Shown here: piece by piece, positions 2,406 to 14,245 of the stretch
Position numbering within the stretch: position 1 is the first letter of the stretch
Layout: the number at the start of each line of letters is the position of its first letter
Source of the DNA: Thermoanaerobacterium sp. RBIITD
Lineage (GTDB): Bacteria; Bacillota; Thermoanaerobacteria; Thermoanaerobacterales; Thermoanaerobacteraceae
Assembly (NCBI RefSeq): GCF_900205865.1
Contig: NZ_LT906662.1
Coordinates: forward strand, 1,054,001-1,118,000
Direction of reading: 5' to 3'
Length of the DNA stretch: 64,000 nucleotides
Notes under the pieces: model-generated
The model's input: the letters and a program-made list of their open reading frames with translations, nothing else
What the model was told of the DNA's origin: nothing
The model's database searches: none
Program-made: the position numbers and the translations under genes

Positions 2406-2719
2406 TTCATAGTTTTGTATGGCATACACTATATGGTAAATCCATTTTGATAATAAAATGCGAGAATCCATTTCGTTACATCCCATGCATTTGTATTTGC
2501 ATTTTAATTCAGTTTATAGTATTTCTTTTAAAACCTTACAAACATGATATTGGAAATAGAAGAACTAATCTAATTTTACTGTAGTCATGTATAATGCCAA
2601 ATAATTCATGTCAATGTATGTCCAAAGAACTTTAAAGTAATTTCTTGTGGTTGTATATTCAAAAATGCTAATGTATAATATATTAAAATAGCAAATTGTA
2701 TTTATTGGTGGTGAATAGA
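2406..2719. other. Gene-free stretch with no clear function
   Basis: This stretch of about 310 bp is AT-rich. On the - strand a stop-free stretch of some 38 codons ends at 2397 and contains three cysteines in C-x4-C-x2-C spacing, but it has no start or ribosome site and I do not recognise it; it may be another gene scrap. A possible promoter for the HEPN gene lies near 2670-2695 (AATGTATAATATATT). I see nothing else. Confidence 0.4.
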
Positions 2720-3151
2720 ATGGATATAGATGAATATAATAGATGGTTTAACCAAGCAATTCACACTTTTAAATCAGCTTATAGAGATTATAAAGATGGT
2801 GATTATTCATGGTCATGTTTTAAAGCGCAACAAGCCGCTGAATATGCCGTTAAAGCACTTTTAAGAGCGTTTGGCATTTCTATAGTAGGCCATTCACTAG
2901 TTAAATTAGCAAATGACCTTGATAATGCTGGAATTAATAAACCTGATGAATATAATAAGTGGGCAAGAAAACTTGACAGAGATTACATTCAACCACGATA
3001 CCCGGATGCTTACCCATCAGGAAGTCCTTACGAATATTATGATGAAAATGATGCTAAAATATCATTGGAATATGCTCAAAATATTCTAAATTATGTGGAG
3101 GAATACATAAATGAATGCAGCAATGATAATAAGGGAAAAGAAAAGGAATAA
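2720..3151 (+). CDS. HEPN domain protein, likely toxin of a HEPN/MNT pair
   Basis: HEPN-fold proteins of this family (PF05168 type) pair with minimal nucleotidyltransferases as toxin-antitoxin modules, with the HEPN partner acting as an RNase or RNA-binding toxin. The helix-rich protein (143 residues) has the family's FKAQQAAEYAVKALL helix (about 34-48), GHSLVKL (57-63) and a RYPDAYP segment (about 93-99). The ATG at 2720 is preferred over the upstream TTG at 2696 because GGTGGTG lies seven bases before it. The usual catalytic R-x4-6-H motif is not visible at its normal C-terminal place; the only match is R8-x6-H15 near the N-terminus. The gene overlaps the next by 41 bases, implying translational coupling. 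Confidence 0.85.
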   Translation: MDIDEYNRWFNQAIHTFKSAYRDYKDGDYSWSCFKAQQAAEYAVKALLRAFGISIVGHSLVKLANDLDNAGINKPDEYNKWARKLDRDYIQPRYPDAYPSGSPYEYYDENDAKISLEYAQNILNYVEEYINECSNDNKGKEKE

Positions 3152-3512
3152 TCTTATAGATATAGGTAAGAAATACTCAGAAATTATTAGTAATGTTTTA
3201 CATCCTATGTGTGCAATTATAATCGGTTCAGTTGCCAGAGGAGATTTTAACGATAGCAGTGATATTGACGTAATATTAATATCTGATGAAATGCCTGTTA
3301 ATTATAAGGAAAGAATGAAACTGTTATACGATCATGTTTTTGATGCAATCGAACCAAAAGGCTATAACACCGAGGAATTTAAAAAACTATATCTTAAAAA
3401 TAACCCCATTTCTATTGAAGCAATTGAAAAGGGTATTGTAATTTATGATGACGGAATATGGGATAAACTAAAAAAAGATATTCTTTCAGGTTATGTTGGA
3501 GAAATACAGTAA
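3111..3512 (+). CDS. Minimal nucleotidyltransferase (MNT), likely antitoxin
   Basis: The protein (133 residues) carries the pol-beta type nucleotidyltransferase signature GSVARGDFNDSSDIDV (about 39-54): G-S followed ten residues later by D-x-D, the metal-binding pair. In characterised pairs the MNT protein neutralises its HEPN partner by adding AMP to it. The start is fixed by GGAGG at 3097-3101. The gene lies in the +1-shifted frame inside the 3' end of the HEPN gene, an arrangement common in these modules. The third catalytic acidic residue may be the D or E in the segment VFDAIEPKGY. The pair sits among gene remnants, as mobile defence modules often do. Confidence 0.88.
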   Translation: MNAAMIIREKKRNNLIDIGKKYSEIISNVLHPMCAIIIGSVARGDFNDSSDIDVILISDEMPVNYKERMKLLYDHVFDAIEPKGYNTEEFKKLYLKNNPISIEAIEKGIVIYDDGIWDKLKKDILSGYVGEIQ

Positions 3513-4159: not shown

Positions 4160-4681
4160 TTATTCACCTAATACGATGATTTTACATTTACGAGTGCGAG
4201 GTCTTGTACGATCAAAATCTACAAAATAAATATAACCTGTTGTTCCGACTCCCAATTTTCCATTATCAACCTCGAATACCTGGCTGGAGCCAATCAATGT
4301 TGCTTTTAGGTGTGCGTCACAATTTAAGAGGGCAGAACGATCACCATTTGGGAGATAGTCATCTGCATCTGGCCATGATAAAACAGCTTCGTAATGCTTT
4401 TCACCAGGATAGTTGTATTGCCCTTCTGCAATTTGGTCTGGAATGATTTTTTTAAGGACATTATTTAAGTCGGCTTGAAGGTATTCATCACCATTTTCAG
4501 TATAATCATGAACGAATTCTTCAAAGAATACAGAACAGGTGGTGTGGGGAGAAATAACAACACAGATACCATTTTGAATTTTACTTTTTTTAATTATTTC
4601 TTTTACGGAAGGAGTAATATTAAAAAAACTTGGAGTCCCTCCATGTGAGGTTAAATTAATTTGTTCTTTATAAATATTCAT
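4160..4681 (-). CDS. yjbQ: YjbQ family protein (UPF0047)
   Basis: YjbQ proteins are small trimeric enzymes of unclear physiological role; some have weak thiamine-phosphate synthase activity. Here the family's conserved blocks are present: VVISPHTTCSVFFEE (about 42-56) with the conserved His, the DRSALLNCDAHLKATLIGSS block (about 114-133) and the C-terminal GYIYFVDFD. The ATG at 4681 with GGAGG eight bases upstream is preferred over the ATG at 4717, which lies inside the preceding gene. It is the last intact gene of the sigma-54-driven PTS operon, 25 bases after the isomerase gene, so a role in handling a sugar phosphate or aldehyde by-product is possible but unproven. A decayed copy follows. 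Confidence 0.85.
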   Translation of the reverse strand: MNIYKEQINLTSHGGTPSFFNITPSVKEIIKKSKIQNGICVVISPHTTCSVFFEEFVHDYTENGDEYLQADLNNVLKKIIPDQIAEGQYNYPGEKHYEAVLSWPDADDYLPNGDRSALLNCDAHLKATLIGSSQVFEVDNGKLGVGTTGYIYFVDFDRTRPRTRKCKIIVLGE

Positions 4682-4706
4682 ACTATGACCTCCAATCTCT
4701 TTTAGG

Positions 4707-5393
4707 TTATTTTTCATTTTTAGCTTTCACAATTGCTTGTATCATTTCTTCTAATCTCTTTACTCTATTTGGAGCATTAATTATTCCACTTGTTGCTCCA
4801 GTTCCATCGGCACCATGTATTATTGTCTGGTAAACATCTTCACCAGAAGTTATTCCTGCAGCCTGCATAACTAAAATGTCTTTATTAATCTCTTTTATTT
4901 TACTTGTAGTTTCGTTTATATAGTCAAAACTACTAGTCTTTCCTGTTCCAATTAAATCAGTAGGTTCACATAATAGTATATCAGGACCTAACGTAGCAAT
5001 AGCCACAGCTTCTTCAATAGAATCTGCACAAACAATTGTAATAATTTCTAATTCTTTTGCTCTTTTTATTGCCTTAACTAAATCAGTTAATTTTAAAGAA
5101 TGTTCAGCATGATTTAAAAATACTGCATCCACGCCAACTGCTTTTAATGATTCAGGTAACACATATCCCATTCCACGTCCTGGAACTAATGAATCCATAT
5201 GTTGAGCCGTGATTTTAAGATTTTTTGTATGTGACTTGATATTAGCCAAATCTGCAAAGGGGGCAGTAAAAAACATATCTACATCATACTCTTCAGCAAG
5301 CTTGTCTGCAGCAAGAGCTAATTGCAAACTTTCTTCACCATACAAATAAGACTTTGGATTAACTACAAAAAACGGTGTTCTTATTTTTTTCAT
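4707..5393 (-). CDS. Triosephosphate isomerase family protein (short form)
   Basis: The protein (228 residues) is about 20 residues shorter than classic bacterial TIM. Catalytic elements can be placed: NPKSY (residues 12-16) with the substrate lysine, NHAEH (about 95-99) with the electrophilic histidine, and CEPTDLIGTGK (about 143-153) with the catalytic base glutamate and the start of loop 6, then GADGTGATSGI for phosphate binding. Short TIMs of this kind occur in sugar catabolic operons, where they isomerise dihydroxyacetone phosphate or a related short ketose phosphate. The gene lies between the class II aldolase (13 bases upstream) and yjbQ in a sigma-54 operon. It is probably not the housekeeping tpiA. 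The exact substrate is uncertain. Confidence 0.8.
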   Translation of the reverse strand: MKKIRTPFFVVNPKSYLYGEESLQLALAADKLAEEYDVDMFFTAPFADLANIKSHTKNLKITAQHMDSLVPGRGMGYVLPESLKAVGVDAVFLNHAEHSLKLTDLVKAIKRAKELEIITIVCADSIEEAVAIATLGPDILLCEPTDLIGTGKTSSFDYINETTSKIKEINKDILVMQAAGITSGEDVYQTIIHGADGTGATSGIINAPNRVKRLEEMIQAIVKAKNEK

Positions 5394-5405: not shown

Positions 5406-6257
5406 TTATATAGTTATAATTTGTCTAAATTTTTTTGTTTCAAATACATCATAATAATGTTCTAGGCACTCTTTCATGCCTTCTTTTTGTGCATTTAGTA
5501 ATTCATAATAATCATTGCATTTAGTATTTTTTACTTTGTTAAATGCAGCAGTTACTAAATCAGTATAGATATTTATCTTGCTTATTCCTTCAGTAGCACA
5601 CCTTTTGAGATTGTCATCTCCTGAAGATGAACCTCCGTGAAGTACTAAAGGAACATTTACAGCATTTCTAATTTCTTTTAATCTATTAAAATCAATAGCT
5701 GGTTTTCCTTTATAATGTCCATGGGCAGTTCCTATAGATACTGCTAGAGAATCTACATTTGTAAGTTCAACAAATTTCTTTGCCTCCTCAACAGTAGTAT
5801 AAACGCTGGCACTATTGTCATTGTTTCTATAATTCTCGCTATTGCCGACATGCCCAATTTCAGCTTCTACAACTACCCCTCTTAAATGGGCATATTTAAC
5901 TATTTCTCTTGTTTTTTTAACATTATCTTCAAATGAATCCATAGAAGCATCTATCATAACTGAGTTAAATCCTTCATCTATAGCTCTGATTATCAATTCT
6001 TTCTTAGTACCATGATCAAAGTGTAATACTGCTGGAATTTTAGCTTTTTCACCATAGTATTTCCCTAAATATAGTGCTTCATCAAATGATAAAAAATCCT
6101 CATGTGCTTCTGCATAAGCTAAAATAATTGGTAAATTTAATTTTTCTGCAACTTCAATATAAGCTTTAATAGAATTTTGATCCACGAAATTTGGAGCTGG
6201 TATAGCAAAATTATTTTCCCTTGCTACCTTAAATAATTCTGTTGATGATACTAACAA
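5406..6257 (-). CDS. Class II ketose-bisphosphate aldolase (GatY/KbaY/Fba type)
   Basis: Zinc-dependent aldolases of this family cleave ketose 1,6-bisphosphates or ketose 1-phosphates to dihydroxyacetone phosphate and an aldehyde. Visible motifs are LHFDHG (about 78-83, metal histidine), EAEIGHVG (about 131-138), GTAHGHYKG (metal histidine), LHGGSS (metal histidine) and INIYTDL (phosphate binding). The TTG at 6257 is chosen because AGGAG lies nine bases upstream; the ATG three codons earlier abuts the ribosome site. It follows the EIIC gene after a 200-bp gap with a hairpin, and precedes the isomerase. No sugar-phosphate kinase is in the operon, which suggests that the PTS product is cleaved directly. 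Confidence 0.88.
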   Translation of the reverse strand: MLVSSTELFKVARENNFAIPAPNFVDQNSIKAYIEVAEKLNLPIILAYAEAHEDFLSFDEALYLGKYYGEKAKIPAVLHFDHGTKKELIIRAIDEGFNSVMIDASMDSFEDNVKKTREIVKYAHLRGVVVEAEIGHVGNSENYRNNDNSASVYTTVEEAKKFVELTNVDSLAVSIGTAHGHYKGKPAIDFNRLKEIRNAVNVPLVLHGGSSSGDDNLKRCATEGISKINIYTDLVTAAFNKVKNTKCNDYYELLNAQKEGMKECLEHYYDVFETKKFRQIITI

Positions 6258-6405
6258 AAAAATCATCTCCTGATTAGAAAGATATATTATATTTTCAAAA
6301 ATTATCTATGGCAATGAAAAGGTACAATTTTACCTAAATATTAATCTTTTTATAGCTCAAGCTTTTAAGCATCGCTAATTTTTTGATACTTTGACTATTT
6401 CTATT

Positions 6406-6461: not shown

Positions 6462-7712
6462 TTATCTAAACAATTTCATAATTTTCAAAATTATCCATGT
6501 CAATGGATTAGCACCATCACATATACTTGATATTTGAGAAGCGCCACTTGGGAATTTAAACGCGGCATCTACCGCAGCATGTGTGAGAAGTGGTGCAACA
6601 TCAGTTGCAATCAAAAGCCCTACGCCTATTACTATTGCTCCGATTAATACCGATCTAAAAACATTTCCTTTTGTAATAGGTGCTATCATCGCTACCATAA
6701 ATGGTATAGTCGCTAAATCACCAAATGGCAAAACACTATTTCCTGGTAATATTATGGCAATCAAAATTGTAATAGGTACTAAAATTAAAGCTGTAGATAT
6801 AGCCGCAGGATGTCCAACCGCAACAGCTGAATCAAGTCCAATATAAAATTCTTTACCTGCAAATCTCTTTTGCATAAAGGACTTAGCAGCTTCTGAAATT
6901 GGTATAAGTCCTTCCATAAGTATCTTTACCATCCTTGGCATCAAAAACATTACGCCTGCCATTGACATACCAAGATTAAGAGTTGCCTTTGCGTCGAATT
7001 TTGCTAAAATACCTAAGATCAAGCCTAAAATTAATCCTAATACAACAGGTTCTCCAAATATACCAAATCTCTTATTAATTGTATCAGGGTCTGCTTCTAT
7101 TTTATTAATGTACGGTATCTTATCAATTAATTTATTTAATGGAATAGCTATCGGAACATAAGCTGCTGAAAAACCGTGCGGCAACGATATTCCCGGTAAT
7201 CCATAAAAATCCTGAACTGTTTTTGCTGTCCAGTCTGCAAGCTTTAATACTATAGCTGCATTAATTGCTGCTGCTATTAATCCTAATGTCAAATTTCCTG
7301 TTGCAGCTGCCACAAGTGCACCAGTAAATGCAAAGTGCCAGTAGTTCCAAAAGTCTACATTTACAGTTTTAGTAAGTCTTGTTGCAAGCATTATTATATT
7401 AATAGCAAGCCCTAGTGGAATTACAAAAGCTCCTACTTTTGATGCAAATGCAATTGCCGATGATGCCGGCCAACCAACATCTATGACATTTAATTTTACA
7501 CCCATGTTTTTAACCATTGCTTGTGCTGCTGGGCCTAAATTATTGACAAGCAAGCCTATTACAAGATTTATTCCTATGAATCCTATTCCAATCGTAATTG
7601 CTGCACGAAAAGCTTTGCCAGGCTTTTCACCTAAAATCAAACCAAGTATGAAGATTATTATTGGAAGCATTACAACAGCGCCAAGGTCTAACAAATATTT
7701 TATTACGCTCAT
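6462..7712 (-). CDS. PTS system galactitol-family EIIC permease
   Basis: The integral membrane sugar channel of a galactitol-type phosphotransferase system, 416 residues, with about 9-10 hydrophobic segments. The N-terminus (VIKYLLDLGAVVMLPIIIFI) and the region around FWNYWHFAFTGALV match the GatC family; a conserved GHPAAIS-type segment lies near residue 300. The ATG at 7712 (GAGG ten bases upstream) is preferred to the GTG three codons earlier, which overlaps the ribosome site. It is the third gene of the EIIA-EIIB-EIIC order, ten bases after EIIB. The sugar is unknown; galactitol-family systems also carry other polyols and some ketoses. No polyol-phosphate dehydrogenase is encoded here, which argues against galactitol itself. 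Confidence 0.88.
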   Translation of the reverse strand: MSVIKYLLDLGAVVMLPIIIFILGLILGEKPGKAFRAAITIGIGFIGINLVIGLLVNNLGPAAQAMVKNMGVKLNVIDVGWPASSAIAFASKVGAFVIPLGLAINIIMLATRLTKTVNVDFWNYWHFAFTGALVAAATGNLTLGLIAAAINAAIVLKLADWTAKTVQDFYGLPGISLPHGFSAAYVPIAIPLNKLIDKIPYINKIEADPDTINKRFGIFGEPVVLGLILGLILGILAKFDAKATLNLGMSMAGVMFLMPRMVKILMEGLIPISEAAKSFMQKRFAGKEFYIGLDSAVAVGHPAAISTALILVPITILIAIILPGNSVLPFGDLATIPFMVAMIAPITKGNVFRSVLIGAIVIGVGLLIATDVAPLLTHAAVDAAFKFPSGASQISSICDGANPLTWIILKIMKLFR

Positions 7713-7722
7713 TCTATACACC

Positions 7723-8007
7723 TCACTTTTTTAATTCATTTATAATCTCTTCTAGTACTTTTTCTTCTCCTATTCCTGTAATTAAGGAAAGAGCATTGAT
7801 GCTTTTTTTGCCAAAGCTATCCTTCAAAATGGTTGTTGTTACAATGAGATCTGCATTCTCTGCATATCCTTTGATTTCAGTAACCTTACACTGAATTATG
7901 TTTACATTGAGATTTTCTTTTTTACATGCTTCGGTTATTTTTTCTGCAACAACAGTTGATGTAGCAATTCCTGTCCCACACGCCACTATAACAGTTTTTC
8001 TTGTCAT
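7723..8007 (-). CDS. PTS system galactitol-family EIIB
   Basis: A cytoplasmic phosphocarrier of 94 residues that passes phosphate from EIIA to the incoming sugar. The active-site loop VACGTGIATST (about residues 7-17) holds the phospho-cysteine in the form typical of galactitol-type EIIB. The ATG at 8007 has AGGAG seven bases upstream; the ATG two codons earlier lies too close to it. It sits 21 bases after EIIA and 10 before EIIC. Confidence 0.9.
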   Translation of the reverse strand: MTRKTVIVACGTGIATSTVVAEKITEACKKENLNVNIIQCKVTEIKGYAENADLIVTTTILKDSFGKKSINALSLITGIGEEKVLEEIINELKK

Positions 8008-8028
8008 ATTCATTCTCCTTTCAATGTT

Positions 8029-8508
8029 TTAAACAGTTTCATCATTCAAAGTACAATTTTTTATAATCTCAATAATTTCATCACCTCCATCTTCTCTAAT
8101 AATCTTCTCCAGTAAAACGTCATTTTGAATTAATTGAATTAGTTGCTGCAGCATTTCAACTTGGCTATGTGCCTCATTCAATGCTATCATGAAAACTAAA
8201 CTAACTTCCACATCTTCCAACGGATTTGCCATGTTTTTAAATATAACCGGGTTTTTCAGCGTTGCGACGGCTATTGCAGGTTTTATTACATGCTCTGGAT
8301 CTGTATGTGGTATTGCAACATTGTATCTATTTAGCTGCAAACCAGTTGGAAAATTTTTTTCGCGTTTTTTTATTGCTTCTAAATAGCTCTCTTTAACAAA
8401 TCCATTTTCGTACAATTTTTTGTACAGTACATCAAAAACATCTTCTTTGCATTTGGCATCAAAATTTGTAACAACTAATTCTTTGTTGAAAAACTCTGAT
8501 ATCTTCAT
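8029..8508 (-). CDS. PTS system fructose/galactitol-type EIIA
   Basis: A 159-residue EIIA of the mannitol/fructose fold. The phosphorylated histidine lies in AIPHTD (about residues 65-70). The flanking NFPTGLQL element and the segment LVFMIALNEAHSQVEML are family features. The ribosome site GAGGAGGT lies eight bases before the ATG. It is the first gene of the operon; its leader starts at a sigma-54 promoter just behind the regulator gene (8544-8560). It is distinct from the EIIA-like domain at the C-terminus of the regulator. Confidence 0.92.
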   Translation of the reverse strand: MKISEFFNKELVVTNFDAKCKEDVFDVLYKKLYENGFVKESYLEAIKKREKNFPTGLQLNRYNVAIPHTDPEHVIKPAIAVATLKNPVIFKNMANPLEDVEVSLVFMIALNEAHSQVEMLQQLIQLIQNDVLLEKIIREDGGDEIIEIIKNCTLNDETV

Positions 8509-8543: not shown

Positions 8544-8560
8544 ATGCAAATACCGTGCCA
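8544..8560 (-). promoter_or_regulatory. Sigma-54 promoter of the PTS/aldolase operon
   Basis: On the - strand TGGCACGGTATTTGCAT: TGGCAC, five bases, TTGCAT, which fits the -24/-12 consensus (TGGCAC-N5-TTGCw) exactly. The expected start is near 8532, giving a leader of about 24 bases with the GAGGAGGT site. The -24 box directly abuts the regulator stop codon. A 25-bp near-palindrome (about 8551-8575) covers the -24 box and the 3' end of the regulator gene. Confidence 0.9.
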
Positions 8561-8561
8561 A

Positions 8562-11501
8562 TTAATTGGCCGGTATTGTATTTTTTAATATTATTTCTTT
8601 TATTTGTGCCGTATTTTTGGCTTCTCTCAATGCTTTTACTATATTTTCATCTGTCAGCACTTTATATAAATCAAGCATATAATCTTTGGAATCTTCTTTC
8701 AAAGCAATCATAAATATTAAATCCGTTTCTAAATCCCCTTCCCAGAAGATAGGCTCTTTTAGTTTTGCGATTGCTATGGCAGGTTTTGTGACATATTTTG
8801 TATCACCATGTGGGATTGCTATACCACCTTTCATCCATGTGGCTCCCATTGACTCTCTTTTATATACACTTAGCATAAATCTTTCATCAACATAACCCTT
8901 TTCTTCAAGAAGAGTAACCAAATTATCGATTATATCACTTTTCACACTGACATCGATGTCACATAATATCAGATCTTCTGTTATTACATCTTTAAGTCTA
9001 CTCTTAAGCTCTATATCCATACCTGCTATTTTTTTGAGTCTTTGTAGCCCTTCTCCATTCATTATCTCTTCTACTGGTATAAATGATACACTATCAATTT
9101 TTGGATCAATTGTTCCTACAAATGCTTGAATATTATTTTTGCCTCTTATCTTCTTTATTTCCTCATCTATTTCATTTTCATTAAATAGGCCTATCGGAAT
9201 TATTTTTAATCTATTTCTTATACCAGGTATTTTGTCTTCTATATACTTTTTAATCTTGAGTGCCGTTCCTTCACCAGTTATGCAAATCGTCACAATAGCT
9301 TTTGGAAGCTTATTTGAGTCTTTTACACCCTCAACATGTCCAACGTATGTTTTATTTTCGTCAAGCTCACCGGCTATCTCATCAATAGTCGCATCCGGAA
9401 TAATTGCTCTTCTTACGGCTTCTAAAACCATAACTGTGTCAACTCTTCCTATCGTCCTTGTCGGTATCCCCGTTCTTTTTGTGATTATTTCGCCAAAAGT
9501 TATAAGTGATCCCATATCGACAAGTATTACACAACCCTTACCTTCATCGACTTTTTTTACAACTTCTATAGTCCGCTCGAGTGCGTCTTCTGGGCTTTCA
9601 TCTAGTGCCATCTCTATGCCATGTGCTATATTGACACCCAAAAGTTTATTTGCAACATCTGCCATGCCACAAGCTACATGGCCATGTGTTAATACTATAA
9701 CAGCCACTCTTCCTTCACTTTTTTCTCTGCCGGTTGAAAATGTTCTTAAATACATTGCTACAAAACCAACCTCATCTTCTGTAAGCATTATATTAAGGTC
9801 TTGATTGATTCTATCTACCATTTGTTTTGCAACTGTATATTCCTTTGCATACTCTTTTTTTACATTATCAAGCTGAGGATTTATAATTGTCTTTCCGCTC
9901 TTTAGTCTTTCATATGCTGCACTTAAATGTATTGCAAGGGAATAAAAAAGATTGTCCTGAACATTTTTATAATTTTGTTTTGCAATATTAAATGCATCTT
10001 CTACAGCATACAAAATCTTTTCCCCGACAATTTCCCTTAATTCTTTTTTAGAGACTGAGATGTTTGATTTTGCATTATTTGCAAATCTTTTTAATTCTGT
10101 TTCTACTTGATTGCCGACTATCTTATATATATTATCCTTTGAAAGGCCTTGTTCTTTAAGCTCATTAAACCTGTCTTCTATAAATTGATATATCTCATCG
10201 GGAAGTATATATCTGTCTTCTTTCGGAAGAAGCTTATTTCTTTTATTGGGGTATACTACCATGTCTTTATCAACATATTTCTCTATATCCGGTTCCCTTT
10301 TGCTGACTTTAAGCAATCCCATTCTAACATGGTTCGGCAGATCTGATAAATTTATATTGATTGTATCTGTTTTACTATCGAGTGTATTTAAAAATCCCCT
10401 TGCACATGCAACTTGTATATCACTCCTCATCTGCCCAATGTTTCCAGGGCAATCGTATAACATTAATGCTCTTATTACATCAGACTTTATCCTTATAGAC
10501 CTATTAATTCTGAAGGCTTCTTTAGTAAAGAAGAAATTTATTATGTCATACCTTTCAGAATATGGCCTTTCATTAATTGGGGGCAATTCTATAACCATCG
10601 GTATTCTTCTTCTAAATGTAAGAAGTAGGGATGATTCTGGATTTTCCGTTGTCGCGGCAATTAACATTATCTTAGCTTCTCTTGTGTTTTCTGTCTCACC
10701 AAGCCTTCTGAATTTTCCCTTATCGAGTAAATAAAATAAAATTTCCTGTCCCTCGCTCGGTAATCTGTGTACTTCATCGAGAAATAGTACGCCTCCATCG
10801 GCTTTTTCTACTAACCCGGGCTTAGTTGTATCAGCACCTGTGAAAGAGCCTTTATTGTATCCAAATAACTGTGCAATAAGAAGCTGAGGGTTATCCGCAT
10901 AGTCTGCACAATTAAAGACAATAAAAGGGCTATCGCTTTTGAGCATGCCGGATTCTATCGCAAAATTATACATAGCTTCAGCAAGCTGGCTTTTGCCAAC
11001 ACCAGACGGTCCGAGTATCAATGTATGAAGACCATGTGGTGGATATAGTATTGCGGCTTTTGCCTGACTTATCTGTGCCTTTAAACTTCCATCATGTCCT
11101 ATGATTTCTTTAAATGATAATCCATTTTCTTTGCTTGTTTCATTGTCTTCTTTCCTATCTTCACAATCAACAGGCTCATCATGTATCTTAACAATATCTA
11201 CCGAGTTTAAAAGCTCTTTTTTTATTTGAGAAGCTACAAAGCGAGATATATCATATCCTAAATCATTTAACTCCTTAGTAAATTGTCTATCAGATATATT
11301 TCTATTTTTACTTAGAATCTTTTTAGCATCTTCATATAGATAGGGCTTTCTTCTCTCTCTTGAATCAGGTATATCATTTAAAAGCCTATATTGAGTAACA
11401 TCTTCTCTATTTATTTTTAATATTGAAGCTATTTTCTCATCTGTAAGCGGATTTTTCTTATCTTCATTCTGAATAACCTTTACAATTTCATCCACCATCA
11501 T
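8562..11501 (-). CDS. Sigma-54-dependent PTS regulator, LevR-like
   Basis: LevR-type activators drive sigma-54 promoters of PTS operons and are tuned by phosphorylation. Domains in order (numbered from the GTG/ATG at 11513): N-terminal helix-turn-helix region (about 1-110), AAA+ domain (about 135-400) with Walker A GPSGVGKS 168-175, sigma-54 contact loop GSFTGA 222-227 and Walker B GGVLFLDE 240-247, a PRD (about 490-597, His529), an EIIA-Man domain (about 602-735, THGH 609-612), a linker with CITGEGTA, and a C-terminal EIIA domain with IPHGD (His about 902). The ATG at 11501 is preferred because the sigma-54 promoter at 11522-11538 predicts a transcript start near 11512. It directly precedes its target operon. 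Confidence 0.92.
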   Translation of the reverse strand: MMVDEIVKVIQNEDKKNPLTDEKIASILKINREDVTQYRLLNDIPDSRERRKPYLYEDAKKILSKNRNISDRQFTKELNDLGYDISRFVASQIKKELLNSVDIVKIHDEPVDCEDRKEDNETSKENGLSFKEIIGHDGSLKAQISQAKAAILYPPHGLHTLILGPSGVGKSQLAEAMYNFAIESGMLKSDSPFIVFNCADYADNPQLLIAQLFGYNKGSFTGADTTKPGLVEKADGGVLFLDEVHRLPSEGQEILFYLLDKGKFRRLGETENTREAKIMLIAATTENPESSLLLTFRRRIPMVIELPPINERPYSERYDIINFFFTKEAFRINRSIRIKSDVIRALMLYDCPGNIGQMRSDIQVACARGFLNTLDSKTDTININLSDLPNHVRMGLLKVSKREPDIEKYVDKDMVVYPNKRNKLLPKEDRYILPDEIYQFIEDRFNELKEQGLSKDNIYKIVGNQVETELKRFANNAKSNISVSKKELREIVGEKILYAVEDAFNIAKQNYKNVQDNLFYSLAIHLSAAYERLKSGKTIINPQLDNVKKEYAKEYTVAKQMVDRINQDLNIMLTEDEVGFVAMYLRTFSTGREKSEGRVAVIVLTHGHVACGMADVANKLLGVNIAHGIEMALDESPEDALERTIEVVKKVDEGKGCVILVDMGSLITFGEIITKRTGIPTRTIGRVDTVMVLEAVRRAIIPDATIDEIAGELDENKTYVGHVEGVKDSNKLPKAIVTICITGEGTALKIKKYIEDKIPGIRNRLKIIPIGLFNENEIDEEIKKIRGKNNIQAFVGTIDPKIDSVSFIPVEEIMNGEGLQRLKKIAGMDIELKSRLKDVITEDLILCDIDVSVKSDIIDNLVTLLEEKGYVDERFMLSVYKRESMGATWMKGGIAIPHGDTKYVTKPAIAIAKLKEPIFWEGDLETDLIFMIALKEDSKDYMLDLYKVLTDENIVKALREAKNTAQIKEIILKNTIPAN

Positions 11502-11521: not shown

Positions 11522-11538
11522 ATGCAAATTTTGTGCCA
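11522..11538 (-). promoter_or_regulatory. Sigma-54 promoter of the LevR-like regulator gene
   Basis: On the - strand TGGCACAAAATTTGCAT matches TGGCAC-N5-TTGCw exactly. The start would fall near 11512, so the furthest upstream start codon at 11513 would not be in the message. The leader then holds GGGGGA and the ATGs at 11501 and 11498. This implies that the activator gene is itself sigma-54 dependent, possibly autoactivated. Confidence 0.85.
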
Positions 11539-11659
11539 TATTATGTGGTATGTTTTGTATATGTTATATAAATATTATATCATATTAATATATATATATA
11601 CTTGATAGGCAAAAATCATTAACCGAAATTCTACTTGATAGTTCCCTGAATGGACCGTA

Positions 11660-11752: not shown

Positions 11753-14245
11753 TCATTTGAAATACATGGCGTACATGAACTCCTCCTGGAATGCCGGCAT
11801 ACTTGATAGCTCTATATACTTTACCTTCTTCTTGATCAATGATGCTGTATTAAGCTCGTCATCTGAGAGAAGCGCCATAGATGCACCAGCTCCTGCAGCA
11901 TTGCCTATCTGCTCTACTCTATCTTTCAGTTCTTTTGGTATAAGGCCTAATGTTGCAGCACCTTCAACGCTTATATAGTTTCCGAATCCACCTGCAAAGT
12001 AAACTTTTTTGATGTCATCTACATTTATGCCCATTTCTTTTATCAAAATCTTGATGCCGGCAAATATAGCACCTTTTGCAAGCTGTATCTGCCTTACATC
12101 CTTCTGTGTCACATATATGCCGTTTTCATTGTCAAGAAAAAATGCCGCTTCACCATTGTACTCGACAATTCTATCGAGCAAATCTTCATCAATCCCTTGT
12201 GGAATTTCTTCTTTATCGACTATTCTACCTGTCGCATCTATTATTCCATGTTTTACAAGCTCTGCTATAACATCGACAACACCGGAGCCACATATTCCTT
12301 TTGGCTTTGCATTACCTATTGTAGTAAATATTGGTCTCTTTGTCAGATCTACATGATCAATCGCACCTATAACACCGCCTATGCCAAATGTAATGCCTGC
12401 ACCCTCAAATGCCGGGCCTGCCGCGGCCGAACACGCTACAAGCTTTTCCTTATTCCCAAGGACTATCTCGCCATTTGTACCAATATCAAGCAGTAGGCTA
12501 ATCTCATCTTTTTCATACATGCGGCTTGATAGTATTGCGGCAACTGTATCTGCTCCGACATATGATGCAACCATCGGAAGTGTAATTATATAACCTTCGT
12601 GATTTATAATAACGCCAAGGTCACGTGCCTTAACTTCTATCTTTGAAGTAAACCCTGGTATATATGGAGCACTTGCAATATTTTTAGAAGGCTCATTTAA
12701 TGCCAAGTGAATCATTGTCGTATTTCCAGCCAATGTTATTTCATATATATTTTCACTTGATATATTGTTTCTGTTGCAAAAATTATCGACAAGTTTATTT
12801 ATCTCATCTATTATTACCTTATGAATTTTATAAAGCCCATCTTCTTCTGTTATTGTATAATTTATCCTTGATATTACATCGGCGCCAAATACTTTTTGAG
12901 GATTTAAAGCTGAATACACATCTAGCCTTTTTCCAGTTTTAAGGTCATATAAATATGCAGCAATTGTCGTTGTACCTATGTCAATAGCTATACCATATAT
13001 TTTATCTATTGCATCCTCTTTTTCTATTGAGATTATCTCTTCACCGCGGGTAACTAATACAACATTGTAATTATAATTTTCTAAAATATCCGGAAGTTTA
13101 TTTAAAAGTTTTAAGGGCATTTTTGCATTATGTCCTAATGCATCAATAACCCTTTCATAATCTCCTCTCTGGTCTTTTAGCGATGGTTTATCTAAATTTA
13201 AGAATTTCTTATTAATCCTAGGCTTTAAAAATTTTAAAGAAAGTTTTCTACCATCGTCTGTCAATATTACTGCACCATTGTTTGTATCAGGTACTATAAC
13301 ATTTAAATCCCTATCAACTTTTACAAAGCAGGCTAATCTCATGCCCGCTTCTATATCAATGTCTTTAAGATGATATCTTTCCGCTTCACTTATATCAGTA
13401 TCTGTATCAACTACTACTTTGCATTTGCCACATGTACGTTGCCCACCACAGGCATTTTGTATATTTATTCCATTCTCTGTCAATGTTTTAAATAAATTTG
13501 TGCCGTCATCTACCGTTATTTCTCTATTTTGTCCTTCAAAACTAACTTTCACCTTATGTTTTGCCTTTTTTGTCCTATGACGATAAATACAATCTATCAA
13601 ATCACATTCATCGCAGTCGTGGTCAACAAGTGATGTTTTGACGTTTTTGCCTATTCCATATACTATTGACGATGATTTTATTGGGTTCATCATGTAACTT
13701 TCATTTAGAGTCACACCGATTGATGATGCATCAAGATTCTTAAATATTATCGCTTGGTCTTTTATATTCCACCTGCTGTCGCCCGGGCATAAACGATGTG
13801 TAATTCCAAACCCCCTGCTCATTGCCTCATTCATAAGGTCTTGCCATAAACTTTTACTTAAATATTCAAGAGCCGTACTTGCAATTGTATCATATACCAT
13901 ACCCTTCATGTAGTCACCATCGCTGAAGGATTGTGATATCTTCTTGTCTAAAGCATCTCCAATCGTTGTAACAGCCATAATAATGTAATCCGCATCTTTT
14001 AAGTTTCTTATCACATAGTCACCTTTAAATACACTTCCATCAGGCAATATGACTTCTTTTTTGTTGTCATCATACTTTATATTAAATTCTTCATAGCAGA
14101 TTTTGGGTTCTATCAGTTTATAAGATTCCTCAATGGATTCTTCTACTTCAGAAATAATATCTTCAGGAACATCCCCATCTTTGTATCCAAGATATTTTAA
14201 TACTAAATCTTTATCTATCTTTATTGGATATGATTTGATTTTCAT
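11753..14245 (-). CDS. ASKHA-family [2Fe-2S] protein, corrinoid reductive activase (RACo) type
   Basis: RACo-type proteins use ATP and a [2Fe-2S] centre to reduce an inactive corrinoid protein back to Co(I). This 830-residue protein has four parts: an N-terminal region (about 1-225) resembling the cobalamin-dependent methionine synthase activation domain (HRLCPGDSRWN, 150-160); a Cys cluster CDECDLIDC (211-219) that may bind iron or sulfur; a plant-type [2Fe-2S] domain with Cys266, 272, 275 and 306; and a C-terminal ASKHA ATPase/DUF4445 half (IDIGTTTIAAYLYD, LLDIGTNGEIVLG, AGGFGN). It is a single gene, divergent from nikR and the Ni/Co transporter. No corrinoid or methyltransferase gene is nearby, so its partner is elsewhere. 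Confidence 0.85.
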   Translation of the reverse strand: MKIKSYPIKIDKDLVLKYLGYKDGDVPEDIISEVEESIEESYKLIEPKICYEEFNIKYDDNKKEVILPDGSVFKGDYVIRNLKDADYIIMAVTTIGDALDKKISQSFSDGDYMKGMVYDTIASTALEYLSKSLWQDLMNEAMSRGFGITHRLCPGDSRWNIKDQAIIFKNLDASSIGVTLNESYMMNPIKSSSIVYGIGKNVKTSLVDHDCDECDLIDCIYRHRTKKAKHKVKVSFEGQNREITVDDGTNLFKTLTENGINIQNACGGQRTCGKCKVVVDTDTDISEAERYHLKDIDIEAGMRLACFVKVDRDLNVIVPDTNNGAVILTDDGRKLSLKFLKPRINKKFLNLDKPSLKDQRGDYERVIDALGHNAKMPLKLLNKLPDILENYNYNVVLVTRGEEIISIEKEDAIDKIYGIAIDIGTTTIAAYLYDLKTGKRLDVYSALNPQKVFGADVISRINYTITEEDGLYKIHKVIIDEINKLVDNFCNRNNISSENIYEITLAGNTTMIHLALNEPSKNIASAPYIPGFTSKIEVKARDLGVIINHEGYIITLPMVASYVGADTVAAILSSRMYEKDEISLLLDIGTNGEIVLGNKEKLVACSAAAGPAFEGAGITFGIGGVIGAIDHVDLTKRPIFTTIGNAKPKGICGSGVVDVIAELVKHGIIDATGRIVDKEEIPQGIDEDLLDRIVEYNGEAAFFLDNENGIYVTQKDVRQIQLAKGAIFAGIKILIKEMGINVDDIKKVYFAGGFGNYISVEGAATLGLIPKELKDRVEQIGNAAGAGASMALLSDDELNTASLIKKKVKYIELSSMPAFQEEFMYAMYFK

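Follow-up and report, generated by a model that had tools for sequence, protein, structure and literature searches.

The window analysed here, a 64-kb stretch of DNA, carries a gene for a LevR-like sigma-54 activator, referred to as REG, and a galactitol-type PTS operon (Table 1). The operon encodes EIIA, EIIB and EIIC of the galactitol family, a class II aldolase, a TIM-family protein and a YjbQ protein, exactly the attached genes listed in the original prediction. A TGGCAC-N5-TTGCAT site, which the prediction had located at 8544-8560, is present there on the minus strand and is called P1. Its placement between REG and the operon proved right; the distances were slightly off, as the gap to the REG stop codon is 1 base instead of 2 bp, and the gap to the EIIA start codon is 35 bases instead of 36 bp. 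Three features go beyond what had been predicted: a second promoter (P2) before REG, an upstream motif common to P1 and P2, and catabolic genes that differ between relatives. The start of REG was placed at MVDEIV because orthologues align from there.

Table 1. Positions of the genes, protein domains and predicted regulatory sites of the locus in the window.
Feature	Position	Strand	Remark
YjbQ/UPF0047	4160..4717	-	
TIM-family isomerase	4707..5393	-	PRK04302, over cut-off
Class II aldolase	5406..6266	-	
PTS EIIC	6462..7721	-	TIGR00827, over cut-off
PTS EIIB (galactitol-like)	7723..8013	-	
PTS EIIA	8029..8508	-	
P1, predicted -24/-12 sigma-54 promoter of the PTS operon, TGGCACGGTATTTGCAT	8544..8560	-	predicted start ~8534
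REG, sigma-54 activator	8562..11498	-	978 aa, start set to MVDEIV; ORF to 11513 (983 aa)
P1-proximal motif ACAATACCGGCCA	8567..8579	-	11/13 to ACAAAAYMTGYCA; TGG 6 bp away; shares bases with the REG stop region
REG C-terminal EIIA (Mtl/Fru type), replacing PRD2	8583..8987	-	His in IPHGD
Candidate intragenic UAS, tandem ACAAAATATGTCA / ACAAAACCTGCCA	8777..8801	-	period 12; inside REG, ~240 bp upstream of P1
REG EIIA-Man domain	9405..9701	-	His in LTHGH
REG PRD1	9744..9983	-	
REG AAA+ sigma-54 interaction domain	10611..11105	-	with GSFTGA
REG RpoN-like HTH 2 (weaker)	11196..11345	-	residues 52-101
REG RpoN-like HTH 1	11346..11498	-	residues 1-51
P2, predicted -24/-12 sigma-54 promoter of REG, TGGCACAAAATTTGCAT	11522..11538	-	predicted start ~11512
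P2-proximal motif ACAAAACATACCA	11546..11558	-	12/13 to ACAAAAYMTGYCA; 7 bp from TGG

P1 features a GG-N10-GC core with TGGCAC and TTGC. The exact TGGCACN5TTGCAT pattern occurs twice in the window, as opposed to 0.013 occurrences expected from 300 first-order Markov sequences. In the whole genome, exact TGGCACN5TTGCWW matches occur nine times, and two of these, P1 and P2, are found at this locus. With two mismatches allowed, the promoter pattern is found 12 times in the window versus 10.2 expected, which is chance level; therefore, weight is placed only on exact matches, and the relaxed scan was not used. A reversed-pattern control of the genome scan (84 vs 14) was discarded as unfair, since the reversed pattern contains CG. 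The predicted starts of P1 and P2 are anchored on the -12 GC, and both leaders are plausible, with a GAGGAGG or GGGGG stretch ahead of the start codon. The genome carries one clear rpoN gene (G000:C1:2681088, E 1.4e-63). A dyad at 8549-8577 (minus strand) spans the REG stop codon and the -24 element of P1; as RNA, it forms a hairpin with a z of -3.4 and no T run. Elsewhere in the genome, an exact -24/-12 site (L009, G000:C1:579167-579183, minus strand) precedes crotonase and acyl-CoA dehydrogenase-like genes (named by eye), recalling the crt-bcd operons placed under sigma-54 in a passage of PMC6615313.

At E<=1e-100, REG is found in 20 of the 24 genomes of the order, 18 of which are among the 20 genomes of the family and two in another family. 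Complete copies are 65-81% identical. P1 and P2 are kept with small changes in all 18 REG-bearing family genomes. A P1-type site is located 1-20 bp after the REG stop codon in 17 of the 18 loci; in L093 (G012), a -24/-12 site occupies the same place, within a shifted REG frame that extends beyond it. P2-type sites precede REG in 18/18 family loci, the second genus featuring TGGTAT in place of TGGCAT. An orthologous EIIA gene follows the P1-type site in 17/18 family loci, and an EIIC gene comes first in L092. Stop codons or a frame change disrupt REG in L082, L081 and L093 (G016, G020 and G012), and both promoters remain in these loci.

The comparison was extended to 16 REG-type loci beyond the order. 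A -24/-12 match lies at most 30 bp from the REG stop codon in nine of these, three of them with TGGAAT. EIIA follows REG in nine loci, eight of which have P1, the exception being L191; in L184, P1 is present and no EIIA gene was found in the 1.3 kb available. Six of the 16 loci have neither P1 nor EIIA. A search with the REG N-terminal profile identified 22 REG-type open frames, 961 to 1033 aa in length, in 21 of 299 phylum genomes, and the weaker matches are nearly all rpoN-sized. In L029 (Clostridium beijerinckii HUN142), two similar sigma-54-like promoters are found in a row between REG and EIIA (L029:11086 and 11332), apparently as a result of local duplication. In L190 and L193, an HPr-like gene directly follows the REG-type activator instead of a PTS operon (by eye).

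The AAA+ domain of REG matches PF00158 at 136.8 bits and carries GSFTGA at residue 217, which literature passages accept as a variant of GAFTGA. PRD1 and EIIA-Man are present (PF00874 and PF03610). The EIIB-Gat stretch has no Pfam match; it is covered by the DagR model and contains the Cys motif ICITGEGT. A C-terminal PRD2 is absent according to Pfam, and residues 843-977 match PTS_EIIA_2 instead (110.5 bits). Some LevR-like regulators of Clostridiales likewise have an EIIA of this kind in place of PRD2, as stated in a passage of PMC10864463 citing Deutscher 2014. The description of the regulator as LevR-like consequently applies to the middle of the protein only; the ends depart from it, with an RpoN-like N-terminus lacking the winged helix, a C-terminal EIIA of the Mtl/Fru type and no PRD2. 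Sigma-54 control by a LevR-related activator, as originally proposed, is well supported by the site, its spacing and conservation, the adjacent activator with its AAA+ domain and GSFTGA, and the rpoN gene in the genome. As far as sequence can tell, P1 is confirmed as a predicted sigma-54 promoter of the PTS operon, which in itself is ordinary.

The N-terminus of REG is related to the RpoN domain of sigma-54. PF04552, the sigma-54 DNA-binding domain, matches REG above the cut-off at model positions 105-160 only, and a match at E<=0.1 is obtained for all 14 aligned REG N-termini. Whole-genome matches to PF04552 number four at E<=10; rpoN and REG alone exceed the cut-off, and neither of the two LevR-type paralogues is included. 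The N-termini of these paralogues, judged by eye to be winged helices, differ from that of REG, in which PF04552 is found in place of such a domain. When a profile of the 14 N-termini was compared with solved sequences, 23 of the 24 matches at E<=1 were sigma-54, the best being the RpoN domain 2o8k/2o9l (E 9e-11), which according to the structure title is bound to the -24 element. The AlphaFold model has a pLDDT of 87.7, and its Foldseek ranks 1-10 are all sigma-54 structures, with 2o8k superimposing at 1.5 A over 55 columns, every E-value being at least 0.001. Aligned with RpoN, HTH 1 gives 99.1% and HTH 2 gives 97.4% over 33 columns; HTH 2 has no direct resemblance to HTH 1 (17%). The RpoN-like domain is apparently present twice in tandem.

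VIA Z values for the N-terminus are near 7, middling values that homeodomains share. Kinship with homeodomains, FapR, LexA and AhrC (VIA-align Z 6-7) was set aside as a common HTH arrangement. The second Arg of the RpoN box, which comes after the first and is an important residue, is not conserved in REG. The activator-interacting and core-binding domains of sigma-54 have no Pfam match in REG at E<=0.01. No description of an RpoN-like domain in an activator was found in a literature search covering titles, abstract openings and passages of the papers listed.

A motif, ACAAAAYMTGYCA, is common to P1 and P2 and ends 4-7 bp before the TGG. Its core, TGYCA, resembles the TGGCA of the -24 element. 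Only two matches without mismatches exist in the 64 kb, and together they form the one tandem at 8801-8777, which we read as a putative REG binding site and as a candidate, and likely, enhancer. With two mismatches, the motif is found 24 times in the window versus 19.6 expected, as by chance, and the P1 copy itself has two mismatches. Similarly, a two-mismatch search of 20 family genomes was noisy among the matches listed and was set aside. A first test of within-genome similarity between P1 and P2 gave mostly weak results and was replaced by the fixed motif, which was tried on nine P1 loci retrieved afterwards. The motif is found at p<0.05 in seven of these nine loci, six with a gap of 4-7 bp and L182 with a gap of 18; L195 has a p of 0.053, and L188 fails. 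Among the four P1 loci inspected earlier, L094, L096 and L036 pass and L029 fails, which brings the total to 10/13. These counts exclude L095, which nearly duplicates L094, and include both of the near relatives L184 and L186. At P2, p<0.05 is reached in only three of 11 loci outside the family; support for autoactivation through the motif therefore comes mostly from the family itself. In the window's genus, the tandem reaches 25-26 of 26 in 7/7 loci tested, and in the next genus 21-24 of 26 in eight loci tested. In most other, distant loci, it is not the top-scoring tandem. By eye, no such motif occurs at the -24/-12 sites near the genome's two other LevR-type genes.

The tandem encodes TKYVTKPAI of the C-terminal EIIA domain of REG. 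We compared synonymous identity along REG in six of the nine genomes of the window's genus and in seven of the nine of the next genus; excluded were G016 and G020, whose REG frames are broken, G018, where REG is spread over several contigs, L093/G012 with its shifted frame, and L086, which nearly duplicates L085. In the window's genus, the tandem codons have the highest synonymous identity of all 914 nine-codon windows of REG (0.969 vs 0.623 overall), and when codon columns were permuted, this value was reached anywhere in 11 of 2000 trials. The tandem ranks 3 of 943 once the window's genome is removed, and 2, 2, 1 and 6 with all six genomes and windows of 7, 8, 10 and 12 codons. Other windows of high synonymous identity include the two ends of REG, the 5' end and the 3' end next to P1, both of which overlap regulatory DNA; further ones lie near residues 102 and 585. 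In the next genus, the synonymous identity of the tandem is unremarkable (113/137 vs 0.717 overall). The counterpart peptide of the operon EIIA, PEHVIKPAI, is also encoded by motif-like DNA, scoring 19-22 of 26 in several loci; its synonymous identity in the same six genomes is below average (ranks 93, 114 and 124 of 139).

The regulator, the promoter and mostly EIIA are constant across L076-L096, whereas EIIB/EIIC and the catabolic genes differ. The tail found in the window (EIIB, EIIC, aldolase, TIM, YjbQ) is present in six loci, namely the window, L077-L080 and L082. The tail of L081 contains two dehydrogenases, a split transketolase, a transaldolase-like protein, an epimerase and RpiB, and those of L085-L087, L093 and L076 contain altronate-dehydratase-like and dehydrogenase genes (most tail-gene functions, here and in the loci below, were assigned by eye). 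L089-L091 carry an EIIC 84-90% identical to that of the window, with PDH-like E1/E2 genes further on, which in L090 and L091 lie behind an opposed regulator gene; these genes may hint at the substrate. Transposase-like genes are found in the tail of L076 and before the aldolase gene in L083 (by eye). In the window, a gene for a RACo-like corrinoid-activation ferredoxin (11753-14245) lies directly upstream of REG, and a different, opposed gene takes this position in the genus mates (L076-L082). A HEPN/MNT-like gene pair located downstream (2696-3512; named by eye) is also present in those genus mates that share the tail of the window.

EIIC exceeds the galactitol cut-off (566.6 bits for 542.2), EIIB (78.8 for 95) and EIIA (80 for 139) remain below theirs, and neither a polyol-phosphate dehydrogenase nor a sugar-phosphate kinase is encoded in the operon. 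At E<=1e-25, the TIM-family protein is found in 12 of 398 phylum genomes, and a YjbQ gene adjoins in 12/12. The neighbours of this pair vary and comprise a galactitol PTS, a glucitol PTS with a SAF-domain oxidoreductase-like protein (no NCBIfam match for the latter), or an ABC transporter with a sugar kinase (partly by eye). Judging from sequence, TIM and YjbQ (4160-5393 in the window; L109-L116) are a portable catabolic module. A single substrate is not supported by the tail genes, as the neighbours point to several import routes; tagatose 1-phosphate, tetrulose phosphates and 1-deoxyketoses were considered and not adopted. YjbQ overexpression relieves a pdxB mutant according to a passage of PMC7954711, a rescue from which no YjbQ function follows. 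The view that the catabolic set does not correspond to a described pathway is uncontradicted by our literature search (titles and abstract openings of the papers listed), in which the window's operon set was not found. Galactitol is named among the PTS types under sigma-54 in a passage of a 2025 survey (PMC12316311); taken alone, sigma-54 regulation of a PTS of this type is therefore no novelty.

We consider it probable that the locus is a self-amplifying, sugar-sensing sigma-54 switch in which REG binds -24-like half sites through its tandem RpoN-like end. REG would be a PTS-controlled AAA+ activator, the DNA-binding end of which is a tandem relative of the sigma-54 RpoN domain. It would bind TGYCA-type half sites, both at the direct tandem located in the 3' part of its own gene, some 240 bp ahead of P1, and at single copies 4-7 bp upstream of -24 elements, and would drive sigma-54 polymerase at P1, for the PTS operon, and at P2, for its own gene. 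Transport of the operon sugar would remove an inhibitory phosphate from the C-terminal domains of REG, and HPr-type phosphorylation of the EIIA-Man/PRD part would keep REG competent. This logic (C-terminal inhibition, EIIA-Man stimulation) is carried over by analogy from LevR and CelR, as presented in passages of PMC10864463. The two HTH repeats of REG are matched by the 12-bp direct repeat, and TGYCA is similar to TGGCA. Binding of such repeats by the RpoN-like domains is the simplest reading. More tentatively, REG may have acquired and duplicated the domain with which its own sigma factor reads DNA, and may now recognise tandem -24-like elements. At P1 and P2, the distance from such a half site to the true -24 element downstream of it is 9-12 bp; activator and sigma could then occupy adjacent positions in one register, or could compete, and the enhancer proper would be part of the REG coding sequence.

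Several other explanations, not mutually exclusive, were weighed. P1 could be a chance sequence and the operon could be read from another promoter, for instance from a sigma-70-like match (11 of 12) before the aldolase gene at 6314-6286. Such matches occur in the region at shuffle level (39 vs 38.9), and the exactness, position and conservation of P1 make this explanation very improbable. The tandem, in turn, could be a coding artefact if EIIA domains keep an HVxKPAI-type peptide, the codons of which are motif-like. The scores of the operon EIIA peptide and the lack of a synonymous excess in the second genus agree with this; yet the EIIA copy ranks in the lower part of its gene, whereas the REG copy ranks highest, and we regard a coding artefact as unlikely.

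Motif and tandem could also be the site of another protein, such as a repressor or a catabolite regulator, which would block sigma-54 at the -24 element. The motif is indeed nearer to the -24 element than usual enhancers, most Clostridiales UAS being placed 100-250 bp upstream in a passage of PMC6615313. Nevertheless, it accompanies REG across families while the downstream genes differ, and it is missing (by eye) from the sites near the two other LevR-type genes, which renders a foreign binding protein improbable. Finally, control could be of the ordinary LevR type, REG acting through another enhancer, with an N-terminus that is a reused HTH of unrelated specificity and a motif without a role. 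HTH domains are widely reused, the residue after the first Arg of the RpoN box is not kept, fold Z values are middling and the motif is weak at P2 outside the family. Against this stand the recurrence of the motif at most of the later P1 loci, the synonymous constraint on the tandem and the similarity of TGYCA to TGGCA, and we doubt that ordinary control is the answer. If, as we favour, REG reads -24-like DNA with a sigma-derived domain, the locus would illustrate how one recognition code can serve both an activator and its sigma factor. It would also provide a natural case for studying discrimination between TGGCA and TGYCA, as well as a site-level rule for locating REG regulons. The stable regulator-promoter head, combined with differing catabolic genes, hints at the way in which these Clostridia re-use one sugar switch for different sugars.

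Among known systems, the galactitol PTS/tagatose (gat) pathway resembles the operon in that the EIIC passes TIGR00827 and the aldolase is GatY-like, although below the cut-off; unlike gat, the operon has EIIA and EIIB below the galactitol cut-offs and lacks the dehydrogenase and kinase mentioned above. According to the abstract and section titles of PMC10101011, a PTS sugar phosphate is likewise cut by a class II aldolase in the retro-aldol tagatose route evolved in E. coli; the PTS is a different one, and these parts of the paper mention no TIM/YjbQ module. LevR/CelR-type PRD activators (type II EBPs, such as B. subtilis LevR and Bacillus thuringiensis CelR) share with REG the central AAA+ domain, PRD1 and EIIA-Man, as well as a sigma-54 promoter beside the gene and PTS control, whereas REG differs in its RpoN-like N-terminus and in having an EIIA (Mtl/Fru) for PRD2. 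DagR (NCBIfam NF047795) is the best whole-protein model for REG, matching residues 92-842 of 983 at 504.6 bits, far below the 1400-bit family cut-off and with both ends of REG outside the match. The sigma-54 RpoN domain (PDB 2o8k, 2o9l and 2ahq) is like REG residues 1-51 in sequence and fold, including the RpoN-box stretch and an SRERR end. Unlike sigma-54, REG is without the rest of the sigma factor, has a second HTH of this kind and does not keep the second Arg of the box. The EIIA-for-PRD2 variant is already in print; what raises interest here is the combination of a sigma-like DNA-binding end with matching -24-like sites.
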